Part shown: piece after piece, positions 1 to 50,182 of the stretch
Layout: every line of letters starts with the position of its first letter
Position numbering within the stretch: position 1 is the first letter of the stretch
DNA from: Hymenobacter metallicola
Lineage (GTDB): Bacteria; Bacteroidota; Bacteroidia; Cytophagales; Hymenobacteraceae
Reading direction: 5' to 3'
DNA: 64,000 bases
Assembly (NCBI RefSeq): GCF_004745645.1
Contig: NZ_SRMB01000001.1
Coordinates: forward strand, 1,364,001 to 1,428,000
The notes under the pieces: model-generated
What the model saw: only the letters and a program-made list of their open reading frames with translations
Databases searched by the model: none
What the model was told of the DNA's origin: nothing
Position numbers and translations under genes: made by a program

Positions 1-2566
1 TGTTCAGTGAGTCTACCATTCGGTTGATGTTGTCCTTGAGGTCCAACATTTCGCCGCGTACGTCTACCGACACTTTCTGGCTCAGGTCGCCTTTGGTAAT
101 GGCCGTGGTTACGTTGGCAATGTCCCGTACCTGCGAGGTCAGGTTCAGGGCCATGGTGTTTACGTTGTCGGTCAGTTCCTTCCAGGCGCCGCGCACGTTG
201 GGCACGTTGGCCTGACCGCCGAGCTTTCCTTCCGTACCTACTTCGCGGGCCACGCGGGTTACTTCGTCACCGAAGGTGTTGAGCGAGTCCACCATCTGGT
301 TGAGGTTTTCCTTCAGCTGCAACAGCTCTCCGCGTACGTTTACCGTGATTTTCTGGCTTAGGTCGCCACGGGCTACGGCGGTAGCTACGTTGGCAATGTC
401 TCGTACCTGCGAAGTAAGGTTCGAGGCCATGGTGTTTACGTTGTCGGTCAGGTCCTTCCAGGTACCCGATACGCTCGGCACGTTGGCCTGGCCGCCCAGA
501 ATACCTTCCGTACCTACTTCGCGGGCCACGCGGGTTACTTCGCCAGCGAAGATGTTGAGCGAGTCCACCATCTGGTTCAGAATGTTCTTCAGATCCAGCA
601 GCTCGCCCTTTACGTCTACCGTGATTTTCTGGGTCAGGTCACCCTTTGCTACAGCCGTGGCTACGTTGGCAATGTCCCGCACCTGAGAAGTCAGGTTGGC
701 CGCCATCGTGTTTACGTTATCCGTCAGCTCTTTCCAGGTACCACCAACGCGGGGCACGTTCGCTTGGCCGCCGAGTTTTCCTTCCGTACCTACTTCACGG
801 GCCACACGGGTTACTTCGTCACCGAAAATGTTTAGGGAGTCCACCATCTGGTTCAAGATGTTCTTGAGCTCCAGGATTTCGCCCTTCACGTTTACCGTCA
901 TCTTCTGCGACAAGTCACCGCGGGCTACGGCGGTAGCTACGTTAGCAATGTCTCGCACCTGACTGGTCAAGTTCGAGGCCATGTAGTTTACGTTGTCCGT
1001 CAATTCCTTCCATACGCCGGCCACGTTCGGTACCGAAGCCTGCCCACCGAGTTTACCCTCAGTGCCTACTTCCTGGGCCACGCGGGTTACCTCGCCGGCA
1101 AACAGGTTGAGCGAGTCCACCATCTGGTTCAGGTTCTGCTTCAACTGCAGCAGCTCCCCTTTTACATCCACGGTGATTTTCTGGCTGAGGTCACCGCGGG
1201 CTACGGCGGTAGCTACGTTAGCAATGTCTCGCACCTGACTGGTCAAGTTCGAGGCCATGTAGTTTACGTTGTCCGTCAGCTCTTTCCATACACCAGCCAC
1301 GTTCGGTACCGAAGCCTGGCCGCCCAGGCGGCCTTCCGTGCCTACTTCCTGGGCCACCCGGGTTACCTCGCCGGCAAACAGGTTGAGCGAGTCCACCATC
1401 TGGTTCAGGTTCTGCTTCAACTGCAGCAGCTCCCCTTTCACGTCTACCGTAATCTTTTGCGACAAGTCGCCTTTGGCTACGGCGGTGGCTACGTTAGCAA
1501 TGTCTCGTACCTGACTGGTCAGGTTCGAAGCCATGTTATTTACGTTGTCGGTCAGGTCTTTCCAGACGCCCGATACGTTGGGTACGCTGGCTTGGCCGCC
1601 GAGCTTTCCTTCGGTGCCTACCTCCTGGGCCACCCGGGTTACTTCGCCGGCAAACAGGTTGAGCGAGTCCACCATCTGGTTCAGGTTCTGCTTCAATTGC
1701 AGCAGCTCCCCCTTTACGTCTACCGTGATTTTCTGGGTCAGGTCACCCTTTGCTACGGCGGTAGCTACGTTAGCAATGTCTCGTACCTGCGAAGTCAGGT
1801 TCGAGGCCATGGTGTTTACGTTGTCCGTCAACTGCTTCCACACCCCACCCACGTTGGGCACCGAGGCTTGGCCACCGAGTTTCCCTTCGGTACCTACTTC
1901 CTGGGCCACGCGGGTTACTTCGCCGGCGAACAGGTTCAGGTTGTCGATGGTTTTGTTGATGGTTTCGGCCATCACCTTGAAGTCACCCGAAACCGGAATC
2001 TGGAAGGTTTCGTCCAGGTTTCCTTTCGAAATGTTCTTCAGTACTTTGCCTACCTCCAATACCGGCACGGCGATGCTGTCCACCAGGCCGTTGATGTTGT
2101 TGATCATGTCGCGCCAGAAGCCCGAGGCGTTTTCGGCCGAGGCCCGCGCCTTCAGGTTACCCTCTACCCCGGCAACCTTGGAAATGCGCGACACCTCACC
2201 CCCTACCCCGCCGATCATCTCTACCATCGAGTTGTAGGCTTCGGCTATTTCGGCGAAGATGTCGTCGTTCTGTTTGGTCAGGCGCACCGACACATCCCCT
2301 TTCTTAAAGGCGTCGAGGGCGTAGAGCACCCGGTTGAGCTGGTCGTTAACGTAATCGGCTTCCTGGCTGTCTTCCGAGCCCCGACCACTGCCGCGTTTGC
2401 GGGTAATATCGGAACTGGTGCGGGCGCCGGAGGGGCGCAGCAAGGCGCTACGGTCGTAAGGAGCCGAGGGAGTGTGTGCAGGAGGTGTGTTAGAAGACGG
2501 GGAATCCTGCTCGGGAGCGTTGTTTTCCGGCGTATTCGTATTCTTGGTAGTCTTACCTGAAGCCAT
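1..2566 (-). CDS. Multi-HAMP sensor histidine kinase (N-terminal part, runs off the window)
   Basis: The reading frame opens with ATG at 2566 and stays open to base 1, giving 855 codons with no stop. The first 75 or so residues are Ser/Pro/Thr-rich and contain no membrane segment, so the protein looks cytoplasmic. A HAMP-like unit follows (around [11 protein letters not shown]), then a divergent one, then seven tandem 92-residue units with the cores [37 protein letters not shown] and [20 protein letters not shown]. Poly-HAMP arrays of this period occur in bacterial hybrid kinases and in fungal group III (Nik1/Os-1) kinases, where they sense osmotic or other stress and feed a HisKA/HATPase core. 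That catalytic part would lie left of the window and is not seen. Neighbour topA is divergent. Kinase identity is inferred from the array. Confidence 0.8.
9..1940 (-). repeat. Seven tandem 276-bp repeats encoding HAMP units
   Basis: The landmark encoding MVDSLN recurs at 9, 285, 561, 837, 1113, 1389 and 1665, exactly 276 bp (92 codons) apart. A degenerate eighth unit lies at 1941 onward. Neighbouring units, especially those starting 1113 and 1389, are nearly identical at DNA level including third codon positions. This points to recent duplication or gene conversion. Confidence 0.9.
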
Positions 2567-5486: not shown

Positions 5487-6368
5487 ATGCTGCGTACCAT
5501 GAATACACTCGGACTACTACTTGGCCTGCCCTGGCTTATACTAACGCACACGCTAGCCCCGGGCGCGGCCACTACTCCCACCAAAACGACTGCCCCACCG
5601 CACTATGCGTGGCTAACGGCCGCGCAGGTGGGCGGGGCTCAGGGCTTGGCTGCGCGCTTTGCTCCTCCAGTTGGCGCCACCCGGGAGGCTGCGGCAGCCG
5701 GTTCTTTTGCCTGGTGGCTGCGGTATCTGCCCTTACAGCCGCCGGGCGCGGCGGTGCATTTGCACAACGGAAAGCTAAAAAACCTCCAAACGGTGCATGC
5801 CGCCGTGGTGCGCATTGATGTCGGCCCGCGGGACTTGCAGCAGTGTGCCGATGCGGTAATCCGGCTCCGGGCGGAGTACTTGTTTAGCCAAGACCCCAAC
5901 AAGGTGCATTTTCACCTGACCAGCGGACACGACATCTGGTTTTCGGACTGGTACGGGGGGCGGGGTTTTCGGGCCCGGGGGGAAGTCGTAGAGCCCGTGG
6001 CGAAAGCCGTAGAAACACCCACCCACGCGGTATTCCGGCGCTACCTGGACCAGATTTTTACCTATGCCGGCACCCGGTCGGTGGAGCGGGAAATGCGGCC
6101 GGTGGCGATGGCAACCCTACAGCCCGGGGACGTATTCGTACAAGGTGGCTCACCGGGCCACGCCGTGCTGGTGCTGGATGTGAGTGCCAACCCACGGACG
6201 GGCCGCAAGTATTTTTTACTGGCGCAGAGCTATATGCCCGCCCAGGAAATCCATGTTTTGCGTAATCTGCAGAACCCCAAGCTGAGCCCGTGGTACGAGC
6301 TAAACGACAAGGTAACGCTGGAAACACCGGAATGGGACTTCAGTCCTAGTCAGCTGCGGCGGTTTTAA
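5487..6368 (+). CDS. Secreted DUF4846 family protein
   Basis: A 293-residue exported protein: an N-terminal hydrophobic signal of about 20 residues is followed by a globular domain. Diagnostic stretches are YLPLQPPGAAVHLHNGKLKN, VVRIDVGPRDLQQCADAVIR and the FHLTSGHD / WYGGRGF region, which I recognise as the DUF4846 family. Its biochemical function is unknown. A second ATG at 5499 would shorten the signal peptide slightly. I kept 5487 because it supplies the basic residue of the signal n-region. It is first in a tight same-strand run with the sirtuin (20 nt gap) and the YdjM-like gene (15 nt gap), so co-transcription is likely. Confidence 0.75.
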   Translation: MLRTMNTLGLLLGLPWLILTHTLAPGAATTPTKTTAPPHYAWLTAAQVGGAQGLAARFAPPVGATREAAAAGSFAWWLRYLPLQPPGAAVHLHNGKLKNLQTVHAAVVRIDVGPRDLQQCADAVIRLRAEYLFSQDPNKVHFHLTSGHDIWFSDWYGGRGFRARGEVVEPVAKAVETPTHAVFRRYLDQIFTYAGTRSVEREMRPVAMATLQPGDVFVQGGSPGHAVLVLDVSANPRTGRKYFLLAQSYMPAQEIHVLRNLQNPKLSPWYELNDKVTLETPEWDFSPSQLRRF

Positions 6369-6388
6369 TTTCTTTCGCCTGAGAACAG

Positions 6389-7087
6389 ATGAAGCAGAAA
6401 ATAGTGGTTTTAACCGGAGCCGGTATCAGCGCGGAAAGCGGCTTAGCTACCTTTCGGGGCTCCGATGGCCTGTGGGAAGGCCACCGCGTAGAGGACGTGG
6501 CTTCGCCCGAAGGCTGGGCCCGCAACCCGGAACTGGTACTGGAGTTTTACAACCAGCGCCGCGCGGCCGCCCGGGCCGCCCAGCCCAATGCCGGCCACTT
6601 GGCCCTGGTGGCGCTGGAGCAGGCTTACGAAGTCGTCATCATCACCCAAAACGTGGACGATTTGCACGAGCGGGCCGGCTCCAGCCGGGTAATTCATCTG
6701 CACGGCAAGTTGTTCGAGTCGCGCAGCACGCGCCACGACAACCTCGTGTACCCCATGACCGGGGACCGAATCGAGTTAGGGGACCACTGTGAGAAAGGCC
6801 ACCAGCTGCGGCCCAATATTGTCTGGTTTGGCGAAGCCGTGCCGCTGATGGAGCGTGCCATGGAAGAAACCGCTACCGCTGCTATTTTCATGGTTGTGGG
6901 CACCTCCCTGCAGGTTTACCCCGCCGCCAACCTGGTGTATTACACCCCCACGGGCTGCCCTACCTACATCATCGACCCGCAGCAGCCCCCCGTATCAGCC
7001 CGGCCCAACCTGCATTTCGTGCGGGAGCCGGCCACCACGGGAGTGCCACGGGTAGCGGCCGAGCTAATGGCCCGCGCGGCCCAGTAA
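6389..7087 (+). CDS. cobB: NAD-dependent protein deacylase, class III sirtuin (CobB type)
   Basis: Sirtuins remove acyl groups from lysine using NAD, giving O-acyl-ADP-ribose and nicotinamide. Seen here: the NAD loop GAGISAESGLATFRG at the N-terminus, TQNVDDLHERAG, the catalytic histidine His105 in IHLHGKL, and the Tyr54/Arg57 pair in EFYNQRR. In SIRT5 and CobB that pair favours succinyl or malonyl lysine, so desuccinylase-like activity is inferred. The four zinc-binding cysteines found in E. coli CobB are absent: between HLHGKL and RPNIVWFGE there is only one Cys (GDHCEKG). At 232 residues the length fits the small-domain-reduced subgroup. It lies mid-operon between the DUF4846 and YdjM-like genes. 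Confidence 0.92.
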   Translation: MKQKIVVLTGAGISAESGLATFRGSDGLWEGHRVEDVASPEGWARNPELVLEFYNQRRAAARAAQPNAGHLALVALEQAYEVVIITQNVDDLHERAGSSRVIHLHGKLFESRSTRHDNLVYPMTGDRIELGDHCEKGHQLRPNIVWFGEAVPLMERAMEETATAAIFMVVGTSLQVYPAANLVYYTPTGCPTYIIDPQQPPVSARPNLHFVREPATTGVPRVAAELMARAAQ

Positions 7088-7102
7088 TATCAATTCTCTC
7101 CT

Positions 7103-7648
7103 ATGGCCTCCGCATTCGGACATGCCCTGCTGGGCGCTACGCTCGGCAAACTCCTGCTCCCCGCCCACCCGAATTGGCCCTGGTGGCTTCTGGCGGCCGC
7201 CTGCGCCGTGCTGCCCGATGCCGATGTAGTCGGCTTTACGTTGGGCGTGGCCTACGACAGCCTGTGGGGCCACCGGGGTTTGAGCCACTCCCTGCTGGTG
7301 GCGGCGGTGCTGGCCGGTAGTTTGGCGGGCCTAGCGGCACTGCGCCAGCCCCATCCGCAGCTGGGCCGGCTCGGGCTGGTGTTGTTTCTGGCTACTGCGT
7401 CGCACGGGGTGCTGGATGCCATGACGACAGGTGGCCTGGGCGTGGCTTTTTTGAGCCCCTGGGACCAGCAGCGCTACTTTTTGGGGTTCCGCCCTATTCA
7501 GGTGTCGCCTATCGGGATAAGCCGGTTTGCCGGAGCTGCCGCGTGGCGGGTATTGCGCAGCGAAGCCCTTTGGGTGGGGATTCCCTGCCTGCTCTTGTGG
7601 CTTGGGCTGGGTTTTTTGACGTCCCGTTCCGCAGATACGCAGCGTTGA
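7103..7648 (+). CDS. YdjM-like membrane-bound metal-dependent hydrolase
   Basis: This 181-residue membrane protein shows the YdjM/DUF457 pattern: an N-terminal GHALLGATLGKLL with a histidine, CAVLPDADV, and the HRGLSHSLLVA motif, with several hydrophobic helices between. These His/Asp residues are the presumed metal ligands. The family is annotated as membrane-bound hydrolase, and the E. coli member is LexA-regulated, but no substrate is established. It follows the sirtuin by 15 nt and is last in the apparent operon. No terminator is obvious before the next gene 65 nt downstream. Confidence 0.82.
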   Translation: MASAFGHALLGATLGKLLLPAHPNWPWWLLAAACAVLPDADVVGFTLGVAYDSLWGHRGLSHSLLVAAVLAGSLAGLAALRQPHPQLGRLGLVLFLATASHGVLDAMTTGGLGVAFLSPWDQQRYFLGFRPIQVSPIGISRFAGAAAWRVLRSEALWVGIPCLLLWLGLGFLTSRSADTQR

Positions 7649-7713: not shown

Positions 7714-10700
7714 ATGCGAAAATCCTACCGTCTGCTCCTGGCAGCGCTGCTTACCACACTATCCGCTCCTCTTGTTGCTCAAAATCAGTCGGCGGCGCAC
7801 TCTGTTTATTTGCTTGGAAATACCGCCGGCGACGCCGTTTCGGAAGCTCATGTGCGTGCCCTCCGCCAGCAGCTGGAAAAGCAAACCGGGGCTTTTACCG
7901 TAGTGCACCTAGGCGACATTGCCAGCAACAAAGGCTTGAAAAAAGAGCCCGACGCCCAGACCACTGCCCGGCTCGACCAGCTCATCGGCCTGGTCCAGGG
8001 CCTGCCCAACGGCCGCATCTACTTCGTGCCCGGCGACAAAGACTGGGACAATTCCGGGGCCGATGGGCTCAAGAAAGTAAAGCGTCTGGAAGAGTACATC
8101 GAGCAGAAGCTGCCGGGCCAGAATGCCTTTCTGCCCACCGGCGGCTGCCCCGGCCCCGAAATCATTGACGTGGCGCCCAACGTCCGGCTGGTGGCCATCA
8201 ACTCGCCCTGGTGGACGCATCCCTACGACAAGCCCGAAGCCCCCGACACCGAGTGCAAGACCATGACCAAGGAGGAGTTTCGGGAGCAGCTCCAGGACGT
8301 GCTAGACGACACCCGGGGCAAAAATGTACTGGTGGTGGGTCACCATCCGGTGATGAGCAACGGGGTGTACGGGGGCCGGATTCCGCTGGGCCGCCACCTG
8401 TTTCCTTTCGATAATGGAGTGCCCCTGCCCGTCTTCGGCTCAGTGTACGCGGCCTACCGCCAGAACGTGGGCACCCCGCGCGACATTGCCAACCCTGCCT
8501 ACGCCGACCTGCGTAAAAACCTGCTCAGCACCTTCAAGGAAAACCCTGGTGTGGTGTACGCCGCCGCCCACGATTATAGCCTGCAACTCGCCCGCTTCGA
8601 GGACAACTACCACCTCGTGTCGGGCAGCTTTGCCGAGGAAGAGCACGTGGGCGCCAACTCCCGAGCTTTATATAATGAGTCGAAAGAAGGCTTTTCCAAA
8701 ATCGACTACTACGCCGATGGTACCGTCAAGTCGTACTTCTACACCTTCGCCAAGGATGGAAATTCGGCCCAGGAAGCCTACAACACCACCCTGTTTCAAT
8801 CGGCCTGCACGGAGCCGCGCCTGCCCAATGTGCCGGTCAACGCCTTTATTCCGGAATGCCCCTCAGCCACGCAAGGCGTAGCCACTACCAAGCCCGACGC
8901 CCCGTTCCAGCCCACCGTTACGGTAGTACCGGGGGCGCAGTACAAGGCCGGGCCGGGCAAACGCTTTTTTCTGGGTCCGCTCTACCGTAGCTCCTGGACC
9001 CAGCCGGTAGAAGTGAAAACCCTGGACTTGGCCGCCGAAAAAGGCGGAATGCGCATTTTTGGGAAAGGTGGCGGCCGGCAGACGACTTCCGTAAAGCTGA
9101 TTGCGGCCGACTCGTCCGAGTATGTATTCCGCTCGGTCGATAAGGACGTAACGCGCATTCTGCCGCCCGAGCTGCGCAACTCTATTGCCGCCGACGTGCT
9201 GCGCGACATCACGCCCACGGCCCATCCTTATTCAGCCCTGGTTACGGGTTCCTTGCTCGACCAAACCGACATTCTGCACGCCCGCCCGCGCCTGTTCGTC
9301 TTGCCCGACAACAACCAGCTCGGGCCCTACCGGCAGGAATATGCGGGCCTGCTCGGAACGCTCGAAGACCGGCCCGTGGACCCTAAGCCCAACCTGCCCG
9401 GCTTCGGCGGGGCCGACGAAGTGCGCCGCTCGTTCAGCTTCTTCCGCCAGCTCTATAAAGACCACGACAACCAAGTGGATGCCATGGCCCTGGGCAAGGC
9501 CCGGGCTTTCGATATGCTCGTGGCTGACTTCGGCAAGCACGAAGACAACTGGAAATGGGCCGGCTACAAGCAGGGGAAGAAAACCATTTACCGCCCCATT
9601 CCGCGCGACCGGGACCAAAGCTTCACGCTCTGGAACGGCTTGCTGACCTACATTGCCAACCGGGAGTGGGCCGTGCCCAGCATCGAGGACTTCCAGGAGG
9701 AATTTCACGACCTGGAAAGCCTCAATTGGCCGGCCCGCCACCTCGACCGGTTCCTGCTGCAATCCATGACCCGGGACCAGTGGCAACAGGTGGCCAAGTA
9801 CATGCAGGAGAAGATTACGCCCGCGGCCATCGACCAGGCCACGGCCCAACTGCCCAAGGAAGTACAGCCCATTTCCGGCAACGACCTGAACCGCAAGCTC
9901 AAAGCCCGTATTCAGGAACTGCCCAAAGCCCTGGACGAGTATTACCTGATGCTGGCCAAGCGCGTGGATGTGGTAGGTTCCAACAAGGCCGAAGTGTTTC
10001 AGGTAAACCGCCTCGACGACGGCAAGGTGCGGGTGCAGATGTTCGACAAGGCAAAGGACTCGGACGACAGCAACGGTGAAGCCCTGTTTGACCGCACGTT
10101 CGACCCCAAGGAAACCGATGAAGTAGCCCTCTATGGCCTCGACGGCAAGGACATTTTCACCGTAACGGGCTCGGCCCGCAAGAGCGTGCTCGTCCGCATC
10201 ATCGGCGGCGACGGCAAGGACCGGATTACGGATGAGTCGCGGGTGGCAGGGCTACGCACCAAAACCAAGGTGTACGACCTGGCCGATACCGAGCTGAAGC
10301 CGAGCAAGGAAACCGATAACCACACCTCCAACCGTCTGTCGGTGAACCGCTACGACCGGGAAGCCTTTGAGTACGATGGTTACAACCCGCGCGCCACGCT
10401 GATTTACAACCAGAGCGACGGATTCGGGGCCGGGGCCGGGTTCGACATTGTGCGCCAGGGCTTCCGCAAGCCCGACTACAAAAATCTCTACGGCTTCGAC
10501 GTGCAGGGCTCCACCAACGGTAACTTTCAGGTAGCCCTGAACATGCGCCACCGCCACGCCATCAAGTCCTGGGACATTGGGGCGCGGGCTGAATACGGCA
10601 ACTACTTCCAGTTCTACAATTTCTTTGGCCTCGGCAACGACACGCAGAAAGACGAAGGCCTCTACGACGCCAACTTTTACAAGGCCCGTTACAAAGGCTA

Positions 10701-11451
10701 CCTTGGCAACGTGTTTGCCGAGCGGGCTTTCCTGCAGCGCAGCGTGTTCCGCTTCGGACCCACGTATGAGCAGTACCAGTCTAATTTTGCCGGCAACAGC
10801 CTGCTCGGCCAGTTGGAGCAGCAAACGCCCGGCCCCAACGACCGGCGCCCCAACACGGCTTTTCAGCGGCTGCTGGGCCTGAATGCCTTGCTCGATCTGG
10901 ATTTGCGCGACCGGCAGACCTTTGCCCGCCGGGGCTTCCGGGTGCGGGCCCAGCACGACAGCTACCACCAGCTCAACCGCACCGAGGGTAACTTTGGCCT
11001 GACCCAGCTTTTCGCCGAGTATTATGCCACCGCCCGCCTCGGCATCCCGGTTACGTTTGTCGTGAAAGGTGGCGGCGCCAAGAACTATGGCAACGTCGAC
11101 GAAATTCCGTTCTACAAATTTACCAGCCTGGGGCAGCGCGAAAACCTGCGCGGTTACTACCGTAACCGCTTCACCGGCGACGCCAGTGCCTACCTCAACT
11201 CCGAAATTCGCCTAGCCCTGGGCCGCGTAACCAACAACTTCCTGCCCTTTTCGTACGGTATCTTCGGTTTCTATGACCAGGGCCGCGTGTACTACAAGGG
11301 CAACTCGCCCGGGGGCTGGCACGCCGGCTATGGCGGGGGCTTCTACATTGCGCCCGTCACTGACCAGTTAGCCTTATCCATTTCCGTCCAGAACTCCGAG
11401 GAACAGACCGCCCTGCTGCAGTTTGGCGTCGGCTTCCGGATCGACCAATAG
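7714..11451 (+). CDS. Outer-membrane protein: metallophosphoesterase-like domain, CotH-like centre, BamA-type barrel
   Basis: A 1245-residue protein with a signal peptide (cleavage near LVAQ). Residues about 30-330 resemble a calcineurin-like phosphoesterase (VVHLGDIASNKG, FVPGDKDWDNSG, VLVVGHHPVMSNG, AAAHDYSLQ). However the usual GNH motif reads GDK and the first DxH is missing. The centre carries KHEDNW (609-613 for HEDNW) and, 19 residues on, RPIPRDRDQSF (Asp632, Asp634), which resembles the catalytic pair of CotH-type atypical kinases. The last 350 or so residues read as an Omp85/BamA-like surface-antigen barrel (QRENLRGYYRNRF, ending FGVGFRIDQ). Related proteins are common in Bacteroidota but uncharacterised as far as I know. 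Kinase-like activity is inference from motif resemblance. Confidence 0.8.
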   Translation: MRKSYRLLLAALLTTLSAPLVAQNQSAAHSVYLLGNTAGDAVSEAHVRALRQQLEKQTGAFTVVHLGDIASNKGLKKEPDAQTTARLDQLIGLVQGLPNGRIYFVPGDKDWDNSGADGLKKVKRLEEYIEQKLPGQNAFLPTGGCPGPEIIDVAPNVRLVAINSPWWTHPYDKPEAPDTECKTMTKEEFREQLQDVLDDTRGKNVLVVGHHPVMSNGVYGGRIPLGRHLFPFDNGVPLPVFGSVYAAYRQNVGTPRDIANPAYADLRKNLLSTFKENPGVVYAAAHDYSLQLARFEDNYHLVSGSFAEEEHVGANSRALYNESKEGFSKIDYYADGTVKSYFYTFAKDGNSAQEAYNTTLFQSACTEPRLPNVPVNAFIPECPSATQGVATTKPDAPFQPTVTVVPGAQYKAGPGKRFFLGPLYRSSWTQPVEVKTLDLAAEKGGMRIFGKGGGRQTTSVKLIAADSSEYVFRSVDKDVTRILPPELRNSIAADVLRDITPTAHPYSALVTGSLLDQTDILHARPRLFVLPDNNQLGPYRQEYAGLLGTLEDRPVDPKPNLPGFGGADEVRRSFSFFRQLYKDHDNQVDAMALGKARAFDMLVADFGKHEDNWKWAGYKQGKKTIYRPIPRDRDQSFTLWNGLLTYIANREWAVPSIEDFQEEFHDLESLNWPARHLDRFLLQSMTRDQWQQVAKYMQEKITPAAIDQATAQLPKEVQPISGNDLNRKLKARIQELPKALDEYYLMLAKRVDVVGSNKAEVFQVNRLDDGKVRVQMFDKAKDSDDSNGEALFDRTFDPKETDEVALYGLDGKDIFTVTGSARKSVLVRIIGGDGKDRITDESRVAGLRTKTKVYDLADTELKPSKETDNHTSNRLSVNRYDREAFEYDGYNPRATLIYNQSDGFGAGAGFDIVRQGFRKPDYKNLYGFDVQGSTNGNFQVALNMRHRHAIKSWDIGARAEYGNYFQFYNFFGLGNDTQKDEGLYDANFYKARYKGYLGNVFAERAFLQRSVFRFGPTYEQYQSNFAGNSLLGQLEQQTPGPNDRRPNTAFQRLLGLNALLDLDLRDRQTFARRGFRVRAQHDSYHQLNRTEGNFGLTQLFAEYYATARLGIPVTFVVKGGGAKNYGNVDEIPFYKFTSLGQRENLRGYYRNRFTGDASAYLNSEIRLALGRVTNNFLPFSYGIFGFYDQGRVYYKGNSPGGWHAGYGGGFYIAPVTDQLALSISVQNSEEQTALLQFGVGFRIDQ

Positions 11452-11505: not shown

Positions 11506-11571
11506 CGGGCTTTTCACCCATAGCCAAGCTACTCCCCGTAGTATTCGGCTAGCCTACTTTTGGCAAACCTG

Positions 11572-11579
11572 TATCTTTG
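11572..11579 (+). promoter_or_regulatory. -7 box of the ppx promoter
   Basis: TATCTTTG matches TAnnTTTG exactly. It would start transcription near 11584, downstream of an in-frame ATG at 11560. That supports the later ATG at 11611 as the translation start. No convincing -33 TTG is seen at the right distance. Confidence 0.5.
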
Positions 11580-11610
11580 GCCCCTCCTTCCACTCTTTCC
11601 TCTCCATCGT

Positions 11611-12597
11611 ATGAATTACCCGCTTCTGAAACTGGCTGCCATTGATATTGGGTCGAATGCTGTACGGTGTCAGATTTCAGCGGTATTGCATTACGGCGAC
11701 CGGTACCGCCTCAAACGCGTGGAATACGTGCGCTACCCGCTGCGTTTGGGCGAAGACGTGTTTGCCACCGGCCGCATTTCGACGGCCCGAGAAGACAAGT
11801 TCGTTAAGTTTCTGCACGCCCTGAAACTGCTCATGGAAGTGCACGACGTAGCTCACTACCTGATTTGCGCCACCTCGGCCATGCGCACCGCGGCCAATGC
11901 CCCCGAAATCGTGGCCCGGGTGCAGAAGGAACTCAACATGCCGATTCAGGTTATCAACGGGCAAGACGAGGCCTTCTACATCAACCGCGTTATCGAGCAC
12001 CTGTTGGAAGATAACAAGCACTACCTGCATATTGATGTAGGTGGGGGCAGCACCGAGTTCAACATCTACCACGACCGGCGCAAAGTGGCTTCCCAGTCGT
12101 TCGAAGTGGGCTCTATCCGGCGCATGCAGCAGGAAGAAAGCGGCTTGTCGAACGAGGCCCTGAACGGCACCTGGCAGCGCATGGAAGACTGGGTACGGGA
12201 GAATGGCCGCAAATACCACGTCACCCGCGCCATCGGTACCGGGGGCAACATCAACAAGCTCTACAGCCTGGCCCAGCCCTCGCTCGACAAGCCCGTCACG
12301 CGCCGGCGCATTGCCACGATTCTGAACAACCTGACCAAGATGAGCATGGATGAGCGGGTAAACGTGGCCATGCTCAACCCCGACCGCGCCGACGTCATCG
12401 TGCCCGCCGGCCAGATCTACCTCTCGGCCATGGAGTGGTCCAACGTCAACCAGATGATTGTGCCCGATATTGGCCTTAAGGACGGCATGCTCCAGACCCT
12501 GTTTGAGCAGCACTTCGACGAAATCGATCCGCTCAACCACGGTGCCGACCATCTGCTCCTGGCCACCGTTCCGAGTCGTACCAACGGCATGGAATAA
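11611..12597 (+). CDS. ppx: Exopolyphosphatase / guanosine pentaphosphatase (Ppx/GppA)
   Basis: Ppx/GppA enzymes release phosphate from polyphosphate ends or hydrolyse pppGpp. They belong to the ASKHA fold (actin/Hsp70/sugar kinase). Visible motifs are the first phosphate loop AAIDIGSNAVRCQI at the N-terminus, YLICATSAMRTAANA, the second phosphate loop LHIDVGGGSTEFNIY and AIGTGGNINKL. At 328 residues it is the short single-module form without the C-terminal HD domain of E. coli Ppx. I chose ATG 11611 because an upstream in-frame ATG would precede the predicted transcription start. It converges on ppk1, so polyphosphate synthesis and breakdown are encoded side by side. Confidence 0.92.
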   Translation: MNYPLLKLAAIDIGSNAVRCQISAVLHYGDRYRLKRVEYVRYPLRLGEDVFATGRISTAREDKFVKFLHALKLLMEVHDVAHYLICATSAMRTAANAPEIVARVQKELNMPIQVINGQDEAFYINRVIEHLLEDNKHYLHIDVGGGSTEFNIYHDRRKVASQSFEVGSIRRMQQEESGLSNEALNGTWQRMEDWVRENGRKYHVTRAIGTGGNINKLYSLAQPSLDKPVTRRRIATILNNLTKMSMDERVNVAMLNPDRADVIVPAGQIYLSAMEWSNVNQMIVPDIGLKDGMLQTLFEQHFDEIDPLNHGADHLLLATVPSRTNGME

Positions 12598-12652: not shown

Positions 12653-14989
12653 TCACGAATTGGCGAAGTCGGCTTTCTCGTCGGGTTCCCCCTCTACCAG
12701 GGCCTGCACTACCGAAATTTCTTGTACCGCCTGCTCCGTTAGTTCCTCCAGCTCATCCTCTTGGGCCTCGGCGCAGGCTTCGGCCAGTTCGTTGGCTTCC
12801 TCCTCTGCCAGAGCTGCCGCTTCATCGGCTTCCTGCTTATTCCGGCGGGTTTGCTGGAAGAGCAGGTGCAACAGCCCCTCGGGAGTCGCCGCAGCCAGCC
12901 GTTCCTCGTCGCGGCGGTAAAAGTCGCGGTGTACGTTCACGCTGGGCTCGTTTTCAGCCGGGCGGTTGCGCACGTAAGCCCCGTCTTCGCGCATGAGGTA
13001 GGAGTTCTGATTGTCGAGCAGATTAAGCATCAGGATGCTGATGGCCTCGCGCTTAAGCTGGGGGTTGACAATCAGGAACAGCGCCTCAATGCGCCGGTCG
13101 AAAGAGCGCACCATGATGTCGGCCGAGCCGGCGTACACTTTCGGGTTACCGGCCTGGTGAAAATAAAACAGGCGGGAGTGCTCCAGCAGGTCTCCCACGA
13201 TGCTGCGCACCTCGATGTTCTCGCTCAGGCCGGGCCGGCCGGGGCGCAGGCAGCAGATGCCACGCACCACAAACCGAATCGGCACCCCGGCCTTGGAAGC
13301 CTTGTAAAACTCGTCGATGAGCTCCTTGTCTTCCAACGAGTTCATTTTCATCACAATGCCGCTGGGCAGGCCTTTTTTGGCATTGCGCACTTCCTCCCGA
13401 ATCAGGTGGATGATCTGCTGGCGCATGTCCTTGGGCGCCGTTATCAGGTATTCGTAGTCGTCGGGCTGGGAGTGGCCGGTAATAACATTGAAGAATTCCG
13501 ACACATCGTGGCCATACACGTCGTTGGTCGTGAGCATGCTCACGTCGGTGTAAATTTTGCTGGTTTGCTCGTTGTAGTTGCCCGAGCCGATGTGTACGTA
13601 GCGCGTCACCTTCTCCCCTTCCTTGCGGATGATCATGAGCATTTTGGTGTGCGTCTTGTACTTGCTCACCCCATAAATCACGAAGCAGCCGGCTTTTTCC
13701 AGCTTGGAGCCCTCCCGAATATTACGCTCCTCATCGAAACGGGCTTTCACCTCAAACAGCACCGATACGTGCTTGCCGTTTTCAGCCGCCTTCAGCAGCG
13801 CCGCCGTCACGCGCGAGTCGTCGGCCAGGCGGTAGATGGTCTGCTTGATACCCAGCACGTGCGGGTCTTCGGCGGCCTGCTCCAGCAGGCGCACCACCGG
13901 CTCGATGCTGTTGTAGGGATGGTGCAGCAGCACGTCGTGGTGCTTGAGAAACTCGAACAGGTTTTCCTCCGCGCCTTCGGGCAGGCTCAGCGGTACTACC
14001 GGGGCCGGCATCCGCGTCGACTTGCCCCGGAAGTTGGGGTGCTTCAGAATCTGCAGCAGGCCCTTCATGTCAATTAGCGAGTTGATGACGAACACATTGC
14101 CGTTGTCAATCTTCCACCGCTCCTTGAGCACGGCCATCATCACCGGCGAGGCGTCGTGTTCGACTTCCAGCCGCACCACGCGTCCTTTCTTGCGGGTTTT
14201 GAGGCCCACCTGGATTTCCTTGATAAAGTCCACGTCGATGTCGTCCGACTCTTCTAGGGTAAAGTCGCCGTTGCGGGTGATGCGGAACAGATCGGCCGAC
14301 ACGATTTCCACGTTGCGGAACAGCTTGGGCAAATTGGCCCGCACGATTTCCTCGATGGGCACAAAAATGACCTTGTCCTTGCGGGTAAGCTCAAAAAAGC
14401 GCGACAGGTTCTGCGGAATCTGCACGAAGGTGAGCCGCTCATGGCCGTTGTCCATCACGCTGTCGGGGCCGGTGCGCGTCACGACCCCGAAGATGAGCAT
14501 CTGGTTCATCATCAGCGGGAAGCCGTGGTAGGAGTCGTAGACCATCGGCGTGAGCAGCGGGAAAATGGTGTTCTTGAAGTAGCCGTCGGCTTTCTTCAGC
14601 TCCAGTTCCGTGAGCTCATCCATCCGCAGGATGTTGAAGCCGGCCTTCTCGAATTGGGGCTTCAGCTCGTTCTGGTACGTCAGCGACTGGTCGTTGGTAA
14701 ACCGGTGGGCAAAGTCGAGCAGCTTGCGCCGAAAAGGCAGTTCCCGCAGCCCGGAATAGTCCACCCGCTCCTTGCCGTAGTCGAGGTAGTTATAGAGCGA
14801 GCCAACCCGAATCATAAAAAACTCGTCGAGGTTGGACGAGGTAATGGCCAGAAACCGCAGCCGGTCAAACAGCGTGCGGCCCGTATCCTTGGCCATGTCC
14901 AGCACCCGATAATTAAACCGCAGCCAGCTTAGGTCGCGGCTGATGTATTTGCTTTTGCGAATGAGGTCGGCGGATTTGAATAATTTCAT
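12653..14989 (-). CDS. ppk1: Polyphosphate kinase 1
   Basis: PPK1 makes long-chain polyphosphate from ATP, reversibly, through a phosphohistidine. The 778-residue protein begins KYISRDLSWLRFNYRVL, the family's N-terminal signature. It carries the autophosphorylated His447 in SKYKTHTKML, the second essential histidine His604 in LLEHSRLFYFH, and HIGSGNYNEQT of the phospholipase-D-like fold. After the last conserved domain there is an extra acidic, Glu-rich tail of about 60 residues (EEEANELAEACAEAQEDE), beyond the usual length. An in-frame ATG at 15034 would add 15 non-conserved residues, so I chose 14989. RidA lies 54 nt upstream on the same strand. Confidence 0.96.
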   Translation of the reverse strand: MKLFKSADLIRKSKYISRDLSWLRFNYRVLDMAKDTGRTLFDRLRFLAITSSNLDEFFMIRVGSLYNYLDYGKERVDYSGLRELPFRRKLLDFAHRFTNDQSLTYQNELKPQFEKAGFNILRMDELTELELKKADGYFKNTIFPLLTPMVYDSYHGFPLMMNQMLIFGVVTRTGPDSVMDNGHERLTFVQIPQNLSRFFELTRKDKVIFVPIEEIVRANLPKLFRNVEIVSADLFRITRNGDFTLEESDDIDVDFIKEIQVGLKTRKKGRVVRLEVEHDASPVMMAVLKERWKIDNGNVFVINSLIDMKGLLQILKHPNFRGKSTRMPAPVVPLSLPEGAEENLFEFLKHHDVLLHHPYNSIEPVVRLLEQAAEDPHVLGIKQTIYRLADDSRVTAALLKAAENGKHVSVLFEVKARFDEERNIREGSKLEKAGCFVIYGVSKYKTHTKMLMIIRKEGEKVTRYVHIGSGNYNEQTSKIYTDVSMLTTNDVYGHDVSEFFNVITGHSQPDDYEYLITAPKDMRQQIIHLIREEVRNAKKGLPSGIVMKMNSLEDKELIDEFYKASKAGVPIRFVVRGICCLRPGRPGLSENIEVRSIVGDLLEHSRLFYFHQAGNPKVYAGSADIMVRSFDRRIEALFLIVNPQLKREAISILMLNLLDNQNSYLMREDGAYVRNRPAENEPSVNVHRDFYRRDEERLAAATPEGLLHLLFQQTRRNKQEADEAAALAEEEANELAEACAEAQEDELEELTEQAVQEISVVQALVEGEPDEKADFANS

Positions 14990-15043
14990 GGCTAGGCAGT
15001 AATGCGGGCTAAGATACGCAGCTGGGCTGCGCAAAGGCGTATT

Positions 15044-45724: not shown

Positions 45725-48700
45725 ATGCTTAAACGTTTACTAACAACGATCTTACTGGTGTATTCGGCCCTGGGATTTGCCCAAAACCCCACGTACCGGC
45801 TGGATAAGATGATGTGTACCCCCGTCGACTGGCCCTACGACATAGCCGTGGACCGCGCCGGCAATATTTACCTGAAAGACGGCGACGTTATCAAGCTCGA
45901 TTCCACGGGCCGGTATTTGAAAACTATCGACGTCAAGCCCACGTCGGGCACCAACGGCGGCAGCTGGGCCATGGGCCTCGACGCGGTGGGCAACCTGTAC
46001 GTGGCCAGCTACGCCTCCAACAACAGCGGGGGCAACAACTTTGTCCGCAAGTACAACCCCGACGGCCAGCTGCTGCTGCAGTTTGGCTCGGCGGGCACCG
46101 GGCCCGGGCAGTTTCAGGAAGTGCATGGCATGTGCGTTAATGCGGCGGGCACCATGTTTATTGCCGACTACAGCACGGCCCGCCTGCAGTGCTTCGACAA
46201 CCAGGGCAACCGCCTGTTTGAATACCGCGTGCCCGGCACTCCCTACAGCACCCACCTGGTGGATGTGGACCTGGACGCGGCCGGCAACATCTACCTGTTG
46301 GAAGAAAACTTCGTGGTGACCAAGCTCAGCCCCAGCGGGCAGCTGCTGGCTTCCATTCCTTTGCGGCGGGACAATAACACAACCTGGGCTCCCTACGACA
46401 AGAGCTCCTCCCTGCTCGTCGAAGCGTCCGGGACCCTGATTGTTTCGGGCTCCCAGAAGCCGCTGATGCGCTTCAGTGCCCAGGGGGCTTTTCTGAGTGT
46501 GGTTGGCACCAATGCCTACGTCTTCAGCGGCAGCACGCGTACGGCCCTGGCCCACGGGCGGGGCGGCAGCTTCTTTGCCACCGACAACACCCACCAGACG
46601 TTTTCCAACCACCTCTACAAGTATAGCAGCAGCCACGCCCTGATTCAGCGCTTCGGCAACCTGACCGGCCTCTCCCACGTGCGCCAGGACGAAATCGGCA
46701 ACGTGTACACCTATGATAAGACGGCGCAGCAAGTGCGCATACACAACCCGGCCGGCCAGCTCATCTTGTCCTTCGGCCTCACCGGCTCCACCAACCTAGC
46801 GGTTACCGGCCTGGCCCTCGACGGCAGCGGCAATATCTACGTGCTGGAAACGTCGGATGATGGCTCGCGCATTCTGAAATACACCCGCCGCGGGCAGCTT
46901 CTAGCCAAATTTGAATCGTTTGGCATTACCCAGGGCTACAAACGCCTGTCGTCCTTGGCCGTCGACGCCGGGGGCAACATGTTTGTCACCGACTATTACG
47001 GGGGCTGCGTGCGCAAACTCAGTGCCCAAGGCGCCTTTCTGGGCACCGTTGGCACCTGGGGTATCGGCAGCGGCCAGCTCTTTGTGCCCCAGGCCGTGGC
47101 CGTCGACGTGCGCGGTAATATCTACGCGGCTGATTTCGACGGGCGCCGGGTGCAGAAATTCAGCGCCAGCGGCCAGTTGCTCAAGCAATTCGGACCATCC
47201 ACCTCTTACATGGGCTCGACGGTCTGCGACTTTGATATGGAGGTAGACGGGGCCGGCACGATTTACCTGGTCAGCTCGGTGCACGCGGGCAAGATATTCA
47301 CGGCCGATGGCCGCGAAACGCCCATGCCCATTGGCGGCAGCCGGGTATCGATAAACCGCAGCGGCAGCCGACTGCTGGTGATGAGCACCAACAACGACCT
47401 GATCCGCTTCTACGTCTCGGGCCAGCAAGCTCCGACCAACCAGATCAGCGGACAGATTTTTCACGATGTCAACGGCAACTGCATTAAGGAAGCCTCCGAG
47501 CTGCCCCTGGCTGGCATAGTGGTGGTGGCCGAACCGGGCAACTATTACGGTATATCCGACGAAAACGGCAGCTACCAGCTGGCTACCGATACCGGCCGCT
47601 ACGAAGTGCGGCAGCTGCTGCCCGAAAACGAGGTAGGCCGCACGATACAGCAAACCTGCGCCGCTAACCCTACTGTCGTATTCCGCGACTATGGCAATAC
47701 GGTACCCGGCGTCGACTTTGGCAACCAGGTCAGCACCAGCCCCTTCCTGCGGGTAGGCGTAGCCTCCAACCGCCGCCGCCGCTGCTTCCGCAACACAACG
47801 ACCGTGACGTACGCCAACGACGGCTACGCGGCGGCCAGCAACGTGGTGGTGAAAGTAGCCTTGCCCGCCGAGGTGAAATTTATTTCGGCCAACGCGGCCC
47901 ACACCGTGGATGCGGACGGCAACTACGTGTTTCAGATTGGCACCGTGGCTGCCAACGACAAAGGCAGCATCCTTATTCAGGATTCCGTGGTCTGCGGCAA
48001 CCCCGAGCTGCGGGGCCGCACCGTCTGCACCAAGGCCACGATATTTCCCGGCAATGCCTACCCGCCCCCGCCGGTCTGGACCCGGGCCTCGGTCGTGGCG
48101 CAGGGCCGCCCCCAAGCCGGCAATCAGGTGCGGTTTGTGCTGCGCAATACCGGCCAGGGCAACATGAGCGACAGTCTGACCTTCCGCATCTACCAGAACA
48201 GTGAGCTGGCCTTGCAGCACCGCTACTGGCTGGCCGCCACCGACAGCCTCGTGTTGCGCGTGCCCGCCAGCCGCCCCGTAGTGCGCCTGGAAGCCAACCA
48301 GCCCGCGGGGCATCCCACCCAGCGCGTGGCCAGCGCCACCGTGGAGCTGCGCGGCCTGAGTAACTCGGGCGAGCCGAACCCGGACATGAATTCCATGTTT
48401 TCTGGTAGTCCGGGCCCCGAAACGGCTACCGACTGCCAGCCCATTCTAGACTCCTACGACCCCAACGACAAGCTGGTAGAGCCCACCGGCGTAACCCAAC
48501 AGCACTACACGCCAACCGGCACCCCGCTGCGCTACCGGATCCGCTTCCAGAATACGGGCAACGATGATGCCTACCGCGTGGTGGTCGTGGATACGCTGGC
48601 CGCCGACCTGGACCCGCGCACCTTGCGGGTGGAAAGCGCCTCCCACCCGTACCGCTTCTCCGTGACGGGCCACGGGCGGCTGGTGCTCACCTTCACCCTG

Positions 48701-50182
48701 GACAACATCAACCTGCCTCCCAGCAGCCGCAACGACGCGGGCAGCAACGGCTTTGTACAGTTCAGCATTCAGCCCAAAGCCGGCCTGCCGGCCCGGGCGC
48801 TGGTTGAAAACAACGCCGATATCTACTTCGACTACAACCCGCCGATTCGGACGAATACGACCGTCAACCGCATTTACGACCTACCGCTGGTAGTGTCGAG
48901 CGACGTGGCCCTTTCCTACTCGGCCATTATCGCCTCGCCCGCCGTGACCAGTCTGGCCCCGGCCCAGGGGCGCGCCGGCACCTTGGTCACGCTCACCGGC
49001 CAGCGTTTCGCTACTACCAGCCCGGGCAACAACGTGAGCTTCAACGGGGTCAGCACGCCAGTGCTGAGTGCCACGGCCACTACCCTGACGGTGCGCGTAC
49101 CCGCCGGTGCTACCAGCGGCGCGGTGCAGGTCGTCACCCCCGATGGGTCGGCCCGCAGCCAGGCTTTCACGGTATACCAAGCTCCTACCCTGCTGAGCAT
49201 GACTCCGGCGGAAGGCATACCGGGCAGCATTGTTAGCCTGACCGGCACGCACTTCGCCCCGCTGGCCGCCCAGGATACCGTCTGGTTTGGCCCGGTAGCG
49301 GCCCGGGTGCTGACGGCTACGGCCACTTCCCTACAGGTAGAAGTGCCGGCCGCGCCCACTCGCAGTCTCATCAAGCTCAGCACCCTGGGCGGGTCGGTGA
49401 CAAGCCCGCAACCCTTCGTGATTTGGTATCCCCCGACTTTGGTACAGGTGAGCCCGGCCAAAGCCCGCGTGGGTGCCAAGGTCACGATTACCGGCACCAA
49501 CTTCGCCGAAGCCACCGCGCGCAACAAAGTTTCCTTCGGCGCGGGCCCCGCTACGGTACTACAGGCCACCGCGGGCACCTTGCAGGTGCAGGTACCCGCG
49601 GCGGCCGAGTCGGGGCTGGTGCGGGTAGAAACGCCCGGTGGCACCACCACCCTGCCCGGCTTCACCCTGCTGCCCGCCCCGGTCCTAACAACGCTCAACC
49701 CGCCGCGGGGCAGCGTGGGAAGCGTGGTAACGGTGAGCGGACGAAACTTCCAGGTCGATGCGCAAACGGACACCGTATTCTTTGGCGGTATTCCGGCCCG
49801 GGTGCTGAGCGCCACCGGTTCCGAATTGCAGGTGGTGGTGCCCAAAGGCGTCCGGACGGCCCCACTGACGGTGGCCGGCGCCGGGGGCCGCTCCAACAGT
49901 CCGCTCGACTTTGAAGTGGTGGCCCTCTCCCCCGACGAGGCCATTGCGGCCTACCCTAACCCCACCTCGGGCGAGCTGAACATCAACTGGTCGAAGGCAG
50001 AATTCGAGGTCCTGGAATTGTCGCTTTACGACGCTCTGGGCCGGGTAGTATACCAGCAAGGCAATCTGGCCCGGGAACCCGAGCACGTGCAGTTGCGGCT
50101 CATGGGCTACCGGCCCGGGATGTACCTGCTGCGCCTGCAAACCAGCGCCGGGCCGGTCCTGAAACGCATCAGCCTGCTCTAA
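45725..50182 (+). CDS. Large secreted NHL-repeat / IPT-TIG protein with T9SS type A sorting domain
   Basis: A 1485-residue exported protein. Order: signal peptide (LLTTILLVYSALGFAQ); NHL-type propeller repeats to about residue 560 (AVDRAGNIYLKDGDVIKLDS, GPGQFQEVHGMCVNAAGTMF); an SdrD-B-like module at about 571 (ISGQIFHDVNGNCIKEASEL); DUF11/DUF7619-type surface domains to about 1060 (LRYRIRFQNTGNDDAYRVVV, NADIYFDYNPPIRTNTTVNR); four IPT/TIG domains at about 1070-1400 (VTSLAPAQGRAGTLVTLTGQ, VLTTLNPPRGSVGSVVTVSG); and a type A sorting tail from about 1409 (AYPNPTSGELNINWSK, YRPGMYLLRLQT). It is likely a surface adhesin. No catalytic motif is seen. Confidence 0.88.
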   Translation: MLKRLLTTILLVYSALGFAQNPTYRLDKMMCTPVDWPYDIAVDRAGNIYLKDGDVIKLDSTGRYLKTIDVKPTSGTNGGSWAMGLDAVGNLYVASYASNNSGGNNFVRKYNPDGQLLLQFGSAGTGPGQFQEVHGMCVNAAGTMFIADYSTARLQCFDNQGNRLFEYRVPGTPYSTHLVDVDLDAAGNIYLLEENFVVTKLSPSGQLLASIPLRRDNNTTWAPYDKSSSLLVEASGTLIVSGSQKPLMRFSAQGAFLSVVGTNAYVFSGSTRTALAHGRGGSFFATDNTHQTFSNHLYKYSSSHALIQRFGNLTGLSHVRQDEIGNVYTYDKTAQQVRIHNPAGQLILSFGLTGSTNLAVTGLALDGSGNIYVLETSDDGSRILKYTRRGQLLAKFESFGITQGYKRLSSLAVDAGGNMFVTDYYGGCVRKLSAQGAFLGTVGTWGIGSGQLFVPQAVAVDVRGNIYAADFDGRRVQKFSASGQLLKQFGPSTSYMGSTVCDFDMEVDGAGTIYLVSSVHAGKIFTADGRETPMPIGGSRVSINRSGSRLLVMSTNNDLIRFYVSGQQAPTNQISGQIFHDVNGNCIKEASELPLAGIVVVAEPGNYYGISDENGSYQLATDTGRYEVRQLLPENEVGRTIQQTCAANPTVVFRDYGNTVPGVDFGNQVSTSPFLRVGVASNRRRRCFRNTTTVTYANDGYAAASNVVVKVALPAEVKFISANAAHTVDADGNYVFQIGTVAANDKGSILIQDSVVCGNPELRGRTVCTKATIFPGNAYPPPPVWTRASVVAQGRPQAGNQVRFVLRNTGQGNMSDSLTFRIYQNSELALQHRYWLAATDSLVLRVPASRPVVRLEANQPAGHPTQRVASATVELRGLSNSGEPNPDMNSMFSGSPGPETATDCQPILDSYDPNDKLVEPTGVTQQHYTPTGTPLRYRIRFQNTGNDDAYRVVVVDTLAADLDPRTLRVESASHPYRFSVTGHGRLVLTFTLDNINLPPSSRNDAGSNGFVQFSIQPKAGLPARALVENNADIYFDYNPPIRTNTTVNRIYDLPLVVSSDVALSYSAIIASPAVTSLAPAQGRAGTLVTLTGQRFATTSPGNNVSFNGVSTPVLSATATTLTVRVPAGATSGAVQVVTPDGSARSQAFTVYQAPTLLSMTPAEGIPGSIVSLTGTHFAPLAAQDTVWFGPVAARVLTATATSLQVEVPAAPTRSLIKLSTLGGSVTSPQPFVIWYPPTLVQVSPAKARVGAKVTITGTNFAEATARNKVSFGAGPATVLQATAGTLQVQVPAAAESGLVRVETPGGTTTLPGFTLLPAPVLTTLNPPRGSVGSVVTVSGRNFQVDAQTDTVFFGGIPARVLSATGSELQVVVPKGVRTAPLTVAGAGGRSNSPLDFEVVALSPDEAIAAYPNPTSGELNINWSKAEFEVLELSLYDALGRVVYQQGNLAREPEHVQLRLMGYRPGMYLLRLQTSAGPVLKRISLL

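Follow-up and report, generated by a model that had tools for sequence, protein, structure and literature searches.

A Bacteroidota family of Omp85-type barrel proteins with phosphatase-type and kinase-fold domains, and a Hymenobacter member that looks like a maintained double pseudoenzyme

In the Omp85 "Metallo" subfamily described by Heinz and Lithgow in 2014, a PF00149 domain lies N-terminal to the barrel, without POTRA domains (PMC4104836). That paper calls PF00149 a metalloprotease domain and relates "Metallo" to "noNterm" barrels; the words "kinase" and "phosphatase" are both absent from its main text. For a degraded enzyme copy beside an active relative, the nearest published analogy is the Fam20A/Fam20C pseudokinase-kinase pair (PMC5413348). 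Here, we analyzed a gene of Hymenobacter metallicola that can be compared with both. It lies at positions 7714 to 11451, forward strand, of a 64,000-nucleotide stretch (the window) of contig NZ_SRMB01000001.1 (assembly GCF_004745645.1), and its reading frame and orthologues define it as one open frame of 1,245 amino acids. On structural models, the encoded protein (the window copy, or copy 1) is a member of a modular Bacteroidota family that combines a purple acid phosphatase (PAP) domain, a kinase fold, a beta-rich domain, and an Omp85 barrel. The interest of the locus lies in this family and in the window copy, which looks like a maintained double pseudoenzyme. In the open-access literature that we searched, we found neither a kinase domain described for such proteins nor their link to PycTM and PPK1, presented below.

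A probable signal peptide, recognized by reading the sequence (residues 1 to 23; positions 7714 to 7782), precedes four domains encoded on the same strand: a PAP-type domain with an altered metal site (residues ~30 to 340; 7801 to 8733), a kinase-fold domain (residues ~434 to 748; 9013 to 9957), a beta-rich domain that separates kinase from barrel in the secondary structure of the models (residues ~749 to 870; 9958 to 10323), and a 16-stranded Omp85-type barrel (residues ~889 to 1245; 10378 to 11448). Pfam gave nothing above threshold for this protein; the sole item was a sub-threshold DUF2267, with no kinase, PF00149, or Omp85 match and no POTRA domain (the beta domain, residues 749 to 870, was not searched alone). 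The C-terminal Omp85-type barrel of an original prediction made on this DNA was confirmed by NCBIfam Omp85_fam, with an E value of 6e-16 over residues 1060 to 1232 that falls below that family's cut-off, and by the full-length model (residues 46 to 1245; pLDDT, 71; pTM, 0.49), in which a 16-stranded barrel matches the BamA, TamA, and SAM barrels at Z scores of 20.6 to 23.6. The relative placement of domains in this model is unreliable, and no support was found for the predicted surface activity or for the threading of the protein into its barrel. The N-terminal domain aligned with pig, human, and rat purple acid phosphatases at Z scores of 20.7 to 21.1 over ~246 residues (for 5uq6, a Z score of 21.1 and a root mean square deviation [rmsd] of 3.0).

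The predicted kinase-like, two-lobed central fold was present in an AlphaFold2 model of the central domain made with 77 orthologues (m90c67dfb3a51; pLDDT, 78; pTM, 0.82); locus L078, whose frame is interrupted, was left out of all folds. Searched against the PDB with Foldseek, this model gave six matches at an E value of ≤0.001, all to Helicobacter pylori CtkA, followed by PI4KII alpha; the TM-scores were modest (0.45 to 0.52 by target; rmsd, 8 to 9). A second structural aligner, which re-aligns candidates supplied by Foldseek, gave Z scores of 14.1 for PI4KII beta, 13.6 for CotH, and 13.4 for CtkA over 234 to 267 residues, then 10 to 11 for PI3K/VPS34 and HipA (HipA, 10.6), 9.8 for Fam20A, and 9.7 for the golgi casein kinase (Fam20C). 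As a yardstick, the best Z score is typically 7 to 8 for models without a clear match and up to 14 for mostly helical models. All 50 matches listed by this aligner are kinase-superfamily entries by title, save 3dnu, which we take to be one as well. CotH and Fam20, both present there, were absent among the 50 matches listed by Foldseek. Sequence-level searches of the PDB were of little help. The best phmmer hit of the window protein in the PDB had an E value of 0.048, to a stretch of viral 3C protease, and hmmsearch of the PDB with an alignment of central domains (A1) gave a best E value of 1.2. Of the 68 central domains from distant members and the window copy, A1 contains 44; 10 degenerate rows (L131, L134, L135, L136, L137, L140, L141, L143, L148, and L144:2302) and a further 14 rows, mostly near-duplicates, were left out, and a list of "invariant" residues drawn from A1 is therefore a favorable one. 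The CotH profile PF08757, run on 44 members, matched one at an E value of 0.023 and none significantly.

Motif counts were made on 82 rows of the Hymenobacter-type clade, with the window sequence counted twice (P0001 and L080), and on all 67 distant rows; L050, which ends at a contig end, is outside the alignment, and L078 is counted with a gap. The original prediction placed HEDNW at residues 609 to 613 and DRD at residues 632 to 634, 19 residues on, and these positions were confirmed. We dropped HEDNW as the catalytic center, however, because the corresponding GDWDRHxDQW of relatives puts the catalytic Asp at position 607, which is Gly in the window copy (DFGKHEDNW, residues 605 to 613; 9526 to 9552). 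In most distant rows, the kinase loop reads GDWDRHxDQWRW and the metal site PIPRDRDQAF. Position 607 is Gly in 82 of 82 clade rows, compared with Asp in 61, Asn in 4, and Glu in 2 of the 67 distant rows. The register of this loop was also supported, weakly, by hhalign: the family's Asp607 falls on the GxWD aspartate in a comparison with CotH domains of the phylum (probability, 7.5%) and on the DxHxxN aspartate in one with HipA domains of the phylum (probability, 2.5%). The scores were 30.5 for CotH, against a maximum of 23.8 over 60 column shuffles, and 24.9 for HipA, against 21.5 over 40 shuffles; as a yardstick, CotH against HipA gave a probability of 69.5%. By these profiles, the kinship of the kinase-fold domain with CotH (PF08757) would be remote at most. 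Of the residues whose conservation the prediction depended on (H609, D611, N612, D632, and D634), all are kept in 82 of 82 clade rows, as is D605; among the 67 distant rows, His609 and Asp611 are each found in 56, Asp632 in 60, and Asp634 in 58, but Asn612 in only 3 (Gln in 60). The DRD (9607 to 9615) is the likely metal-binding position, and the N lobe carries a glycine-rich KGGGRQT loop with R473 and K477 (9064 to 9144). Read from these motifs, the window copy would lack kinase-type activity.

The phosphatase site is altered as well, in the motifs that the original prediction had pointed to. GNTA (residues 35 to 38; 7816 to 7827) stands where relatives have GDxG, and the ligand at 36 is Asn in 81 of 82 clade rows (one gap) and Asp in 33 of 35 distant full-length rows. 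In GDIAS (67 to 71; 7912 to 7926; GDNIY in relatives), Asp68 is kept and the Tyr ligand at 71 is lost; in GDKD (107 to 110; 8032 to 8043; GNHD in relatives), Asn108 is replaced by Asp and His109 by Lys; GHHP (209 to 212; 8338 to 8349) keeps His210; and AHDY (285 to 288; 8566 to 8577; GHxH in relatives) keeps His286, with His288 replaced by Tyr. Across the clade, position 108 is Asp in 81 of 82 rows (one gap), position 71 is Gly, Ala, Ser, or Val, position 109 is Lys, Arg, or Gln, and position 288 is Tyr or Phe; D68, H210, and H286 are kept. Taking what we presume to be the seven-ligand PAP set, the window copy has replaced four of seven metal ligands and the catalytic His and left three of seven ligands unchanged; 33 of the 35 full-length rows from distant genomes carry all seven. 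We infer that both sites changed on the branch leading to the Hymenobacter-type clade. Degradation is seen in other members as well: the phosphatase motif is broken and the kinase loop intact in two (L133 and L147), and kinase motifs are degraded in L134, L135, and L148 and in one of the two tandem members at L144.

We compared the window copy with eight orthologues by the Nei-Gojobori method. Over the eight pairs, dN/dS ranged from 0.024 to 0.105 for the kinase domain, 0.056 to 0.213 for the phosphatase domain, 0.049 to 0.242 for the beta domain, and 0.079 to 0.183 for the barrel, and the kinase domain had the lowest value of the four in seven of eight pairs. Given this low kinase dN/dS and the loss of motifs, the window copy looks like a maintained double pseudoenzyme. 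That one protein both adds and removes phosphate, as originally proposed, is not supported for the window copy, both centers of which are without residues that most distant relatives keep. Dual activity is plausible for its relatives, and the kinase/phosphatase idea would suit the window copy less well than it suits the wider family, to which another gene of this genome (copy 2, below) also belongs.

A first genome scan, of which the best 80 of 146 matches were kept, gave 79 loci. Their matches start at or before residue 29 and reach residues 1244 to 1245, except at the contig-end locus L050, with 64 to 91% identity in the best segment; all are from Hymenobacter except L038 (Hymenobacteraceae) and L047 (Solirubrum). 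In a scan of the phylum, 134 of 296 genomes matched the protein at an E value of ≤1e-5. With matches this nearly full length and this numerous, the architecture of the gene is not due to chance. The kinase-part profile matched in 69 of 198 phylum genomes at an E value of ≤1e-10, and from the two scans, we concluded that the family is widespread. Full-length members in distant genomes have ~1,200 to 1,380 amino acids (e.g., L083 to L109 and L129), and the parts also occur in other combinations: kinase part plus barrel without the phosphatase (mostly 850 to 950 amino acids; e.g., L110 to L115), kinase part and barrel encoded by two same-strand genes (L116 and L117), kinase part alone (L127 and L128), phosphatase part alone (L138), and a phosphatase-part gene directly adjoining a kinase-part gene (L139). 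Pfam Omp85 scored above its cut-off in L083 and L116; L083 matched PF00149 too, and L129 matched PF00149 only.

The genome of the window holds four matches to the kinase-part profile: the window copy; copy 2, a protein of 1,379 amino acids encoded on contig 7; and a divergent gene pair whose products have 537 and 530 amino acids. Copy 2 matches PF00149 above cut-off and has the full phosphatase motif set and GDWDRHEDQW. The divergent pair (G000, contig 6, near 1017739 to 1021021; L224:8174-11531) is barrel-less, has starts that read like those of lipoproteins, and lies ~6 kb from a separate PF00149 gene. One member carries GDWSRREDQW, with the Asp position changed, and the other GDWDRHEGQW, in which the Asp is retained; judged by these motifs, the pair is another intact/degraded kinase pair.

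Downstream of the window copy lie a Ppx/GppA phosphatase family gene (11560 to 12597, forward strand; PF02541, E value of 2e-38), found in 74 of the 79 Hymenobacter-type loci, and a polyphosphate kinase PPK1 gene (12653 to 15034, reverse strand; PF02503 and others), found in 70 of 79 (5-kb flanks, some cut). Neighbors in these 79 loci, and in several further loci including the phosphatase-less ones below, were called by phmmer with single queries, which may miss some; for the neighbor clusters around distant full-length members, Pfam was run on one or two members each. To measure linkage, we used 40 genomes hand-picked among those with a full-length member, family genes as found in the phylum scan, and rounded genome sizes. 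In 36 of these genomes, a family gene has a PycTM domain no more than 10 kb away, versus 0.38 expected from random placement; PycTM is matched only once in 29 genomes, and for 26 of them that sole match is the linked one. The matches include proteins other than HD ones: the 36 linked matches comprise 25 in frames of at least 390 amino acids and 11 in frames of 190 to 301 amino acids, and an HD domain was found in the two tested. For PPK1, 11 of the 40 genomes have a match no more than 10 kb away (0.41 expected), and 16 have one when the limit is set at 20 kb (0.74 expected); the 11 genomes span seven family codes and include one (G118) in which the linked family gene is a barrel-less kinase-part gene. 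We concluded that family genes are linked in the genome to a gene for a PycTM-domain membrane protein and, in part, to PPK1. We set a defense-system reading aside: PADLOC hits the HD-PycTM protein and weakly a cyclase, but it hits neither the window protein nor copy 2, and where a genome has a sole PycTM match (29 of 40), this is mostly located beside the kinase-fold barrel family.

Around 40 distant full-length members, the HD/PycTM cluster was found in 32 stretches, PPK1 in 8, SdiA-regulated/phytase-like clusters in 23 (15 + 8), and a GAF-like gene of 790 amino acids in 19. This recurrent neighbor (762 to 808 amino acids; L213:855-3236 and 18 other loci) is conserved, and the one member tested gave a sub-threshold GAF match. 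Four loci (L199, L201, L203, and L217) share the same-strand order HD-PycTM, PPK1, SdiA-like, and family gene, followed in three by the GAF-like gene. In three genomes (G000, G072, and G166), each of two copies has PPK1 within 5 kb. PPK1, HD-PycTM, SdiA-like, and CotH-like genes meet in L227, and PAP2-, CotH-, porin-, SdiA-, PPK1-, SixA-, and HD-PycTM-like genes surround the family gene in L264. By Pfam, L226 has PAP2, CotH, porin O/P, histidine phosphatase, and HD-PycTM genes, with no PPK1 seen in its 14 kb; a CotH kinase gene thus clusters with the kinase-fold barrel protein and PAP2 and porin O/P-like genes in L226 (Pfam confirmed) and L264. A cyclase/TPR gene cluster occurs in 7 of 40 loci (L188, L190, L191, L194 to L196, and L198); the one member tested, from L188, matched PF00211 and, weakly in PADLOC, PycC. 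L190, L191, and L198 have a cyclase/TPR gene plus a PycTM-cluster gene, which recalls the Pycsar cyclase-effector pairing in a non-defense setting. Similar cyclase genes lie in L260, L261, and L263, where the match may rest on TPR repeats.

Elsewhere in the window, genes for a DUF4846 protein (E value, 5e-87), Sir2, and YdjM lie upstream, at 5487 to 7648, and Sir2 recurs in 72 of the 79 loci. A gene open at the window edge (2 to 2566, reverse strand) has about seven tandem units of 92 amino acids, with a 276-bp DNA repeat at 59 to 1936; by eye, the units look like a series of HAMP-type linkers within a large sensor. A protein of 1,485 amino acids (45725 to 50182) carries a Por_Secre_tail sorting domain, NHL/TIG repeats, and DUF7619.

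Our preferred reading, which we hold tentatively, is an envelope phosphotransfer system tied to polyphosphate, with the window copy as a non-catalytic partner. Given their position ahead of an Omp85 barrel, the soluble domains are most likely periplasmic. Intact members would phosphorylate and dephosphorylate an envelope substrate. Both sites look intact in most relatives, and together with the PycTM/PPK1 linkage this points to a probable role of the family in envelope phosphotransfer and dephosphorylation, coupled to phosphate status or to polyphosphate. The window copy is from a Hymenobacter-type clade that has lost residues of both catalytic centers, with the changes fixed, and it would most likely act without catalysis, by analogy with Fam20A and Fam20C as a ligand-binding scaffold or an allosteric partner of an active paralogue. 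A number of observations weigh against this. Asn36 and Asp108 could still bind metal, and D605, D611, or other residues might replace the lost Asp, the loss of activity having been read from sequence. The partnership of copy 1 and copy 2 is presumed by analogy, and a tree sets copy 1 nearer to phosphatase-less proteins of other families than to copy 2 (SH-aLRT, 96; 10 degenerate rows of 80 dropped; deep forks weak), and the two copies are therefore old. The window copy has no PycTM neighbor; the only one in the genome adjoins copy 2. In a genus survey, 9 of 61 genomes had no copy-1 row among the matches listed, 2 of these 9 being only 82% complete. PPK1 is not found within 20 kb in 24 of 40 genomes, and in 2 (G107 and G134) the search gave no PPK1 match. 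Among the 20 loci whose members are phosphatase-less, 11 have none of the queried neighbors, 8 have HD-PycTM-like genes (L260, L261, L264, L266, L273, L274, L275, and L279), and 5 have PPK1, in each case besides the HD-PycTM-like gene (L260, L261, L264, L266, and L274); L263 has only SdiA- and cyclase-like genes. Finally, the sampled genomes are related and hand-picked, so that the expectations from random placement overstate significance and the linkage figures are not probabilities.

The window copy could alternatively be an active, unconventional enzyme, with a kinase that uses a migrated D605 or D611 together with N612, D632, and D634 and a phosphatase that uses fewer or other metals. The invariance of D605, H609, D611, D632, and D634 in the clade and the constraint on the kinase domain, the most constrained part in seven of eight pairs, would fit such an enzyme, as would Asn612, which in all 82 clade rows is the residue that HipA has at the aligned place, where 60 of 67 distant rows have Gln. 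Against these stand the invariant Gly607 and a phosphatase site in which the catalytic His and four of the seven ligands are replaced, and we regard an active enzyme as unlikely. At the other extreme, the gene might be a decaying leftover of a duplication, as the lost catalytic residues and the survey's one genome with the gene split in two frames and one with an N-terminal part only might suggest. Yet 50 of the 61 genus genomes have a whole copy 1 among the matches listed, N36, D108, and G607 are invariant in rows that have the position, and dN/dS is 0.02 to 0.24 in all four domains over the eight pairs; contradicted by this purifying selection, decay was rejected as highly improbable.

Other explanations concern the family as a whole. 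Its soluble domains might be cargo of their own barrel: the barrel is closest to those of BamA, TamA, and SAM, and PlpD offers a precedent (PMC4104836). The kinase part is, however, encoded separately from a nearby barrel gene in L116 and L117 and is barrel-less in L127, L128, and L224, which suggests enzyme modules rather than cargo, and we think the cargo explanation improbable. The family might also be a sensor of phosphate or polyphosphate and not an enzyme, tied to nucleotide signaling through the PycTM protein and a cyclase-type neighbor. The PycTM-domain gene in 36 of 40 genomes and the cyclase/TPR cluster, with its PF00211 and weak PycC matches and the similar genes in L260, L261, and L263, speak for a sensor, but in both domains the catalytic residues are kept by most relatives, and a pure sensor would have no use for them; we consider this reading doubtful. 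A more specific form of the preferred phosphotransfer reading is an outer-membrane machine with polyphosphate, not ATP, as donor in the ATP-free envelope. PPK1 would supply the polymer, the PycTM protein would gate the signal, the kinase domain would phosphorylate an envelope target, the PAP domain would reverse this, and the double pseudoenzyme of the Hymenobacter clade would regulate. We offer this scheme as a long shot.

Extracytoplasmic kinases of such a fold pose the question of the phosphate donor. A widespread family with a kinase fold on an outer-membrane barrel, often with a phosphatase and sometimes near PPK1, makes that question testable. Clade-wide loss at both sites, strong constraint, and an intact-looking paralogue together make a natural pseudoenzyme experiment. 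Annotation shows little of this: Pfam finds no kinase, and a full-length relative with 64.7% identity is labeled "hypothetical protein" in two plasmid records.

Among known systems, CotH kinases (PF08757; 5jd9 and 5jda) resemble the family in fold (Z score, 13.6; rmsd, 4.1; 249 residues aligned; 12% identity) and in the motif order GxWD...IPxDxD. The family differs from them in having Gln or Asn at 612, an RDRD metal site, and the fusion to PAP and barrel, and true CotH genes occur separately near a family gene. PI4KII, CtkA, HipA, and Fam20 kinases are alike in fold (Z scores of 14.1, 13.4, 10.6, and 9.8/9.7), but no sequence-level membership in these groups was found for the kinase-fold domain; PF00454 matched nothing in 80 genomes sampled from the phylum. 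The N-terminal domain shares the fold of purple acid phosphatases (Z score, ~21), whereas the window copy keeps only three of seven ligands. As in the "Metallo" subfamily (PMC4104836), a PF00149-type domain precedes an Omp85 barrel; unlike "Metallo" as described there, a kinase fold lies in between, and the clade of the window copy has changes at both enzyme sites. By this likeness in architecture, the family is a candidate for that cluster. The Fam20A/Fam20C pair (PMC5413348) is eukaryotic; as an analogy, the genome here would resemble it in having a degraded copy beside an active relative.

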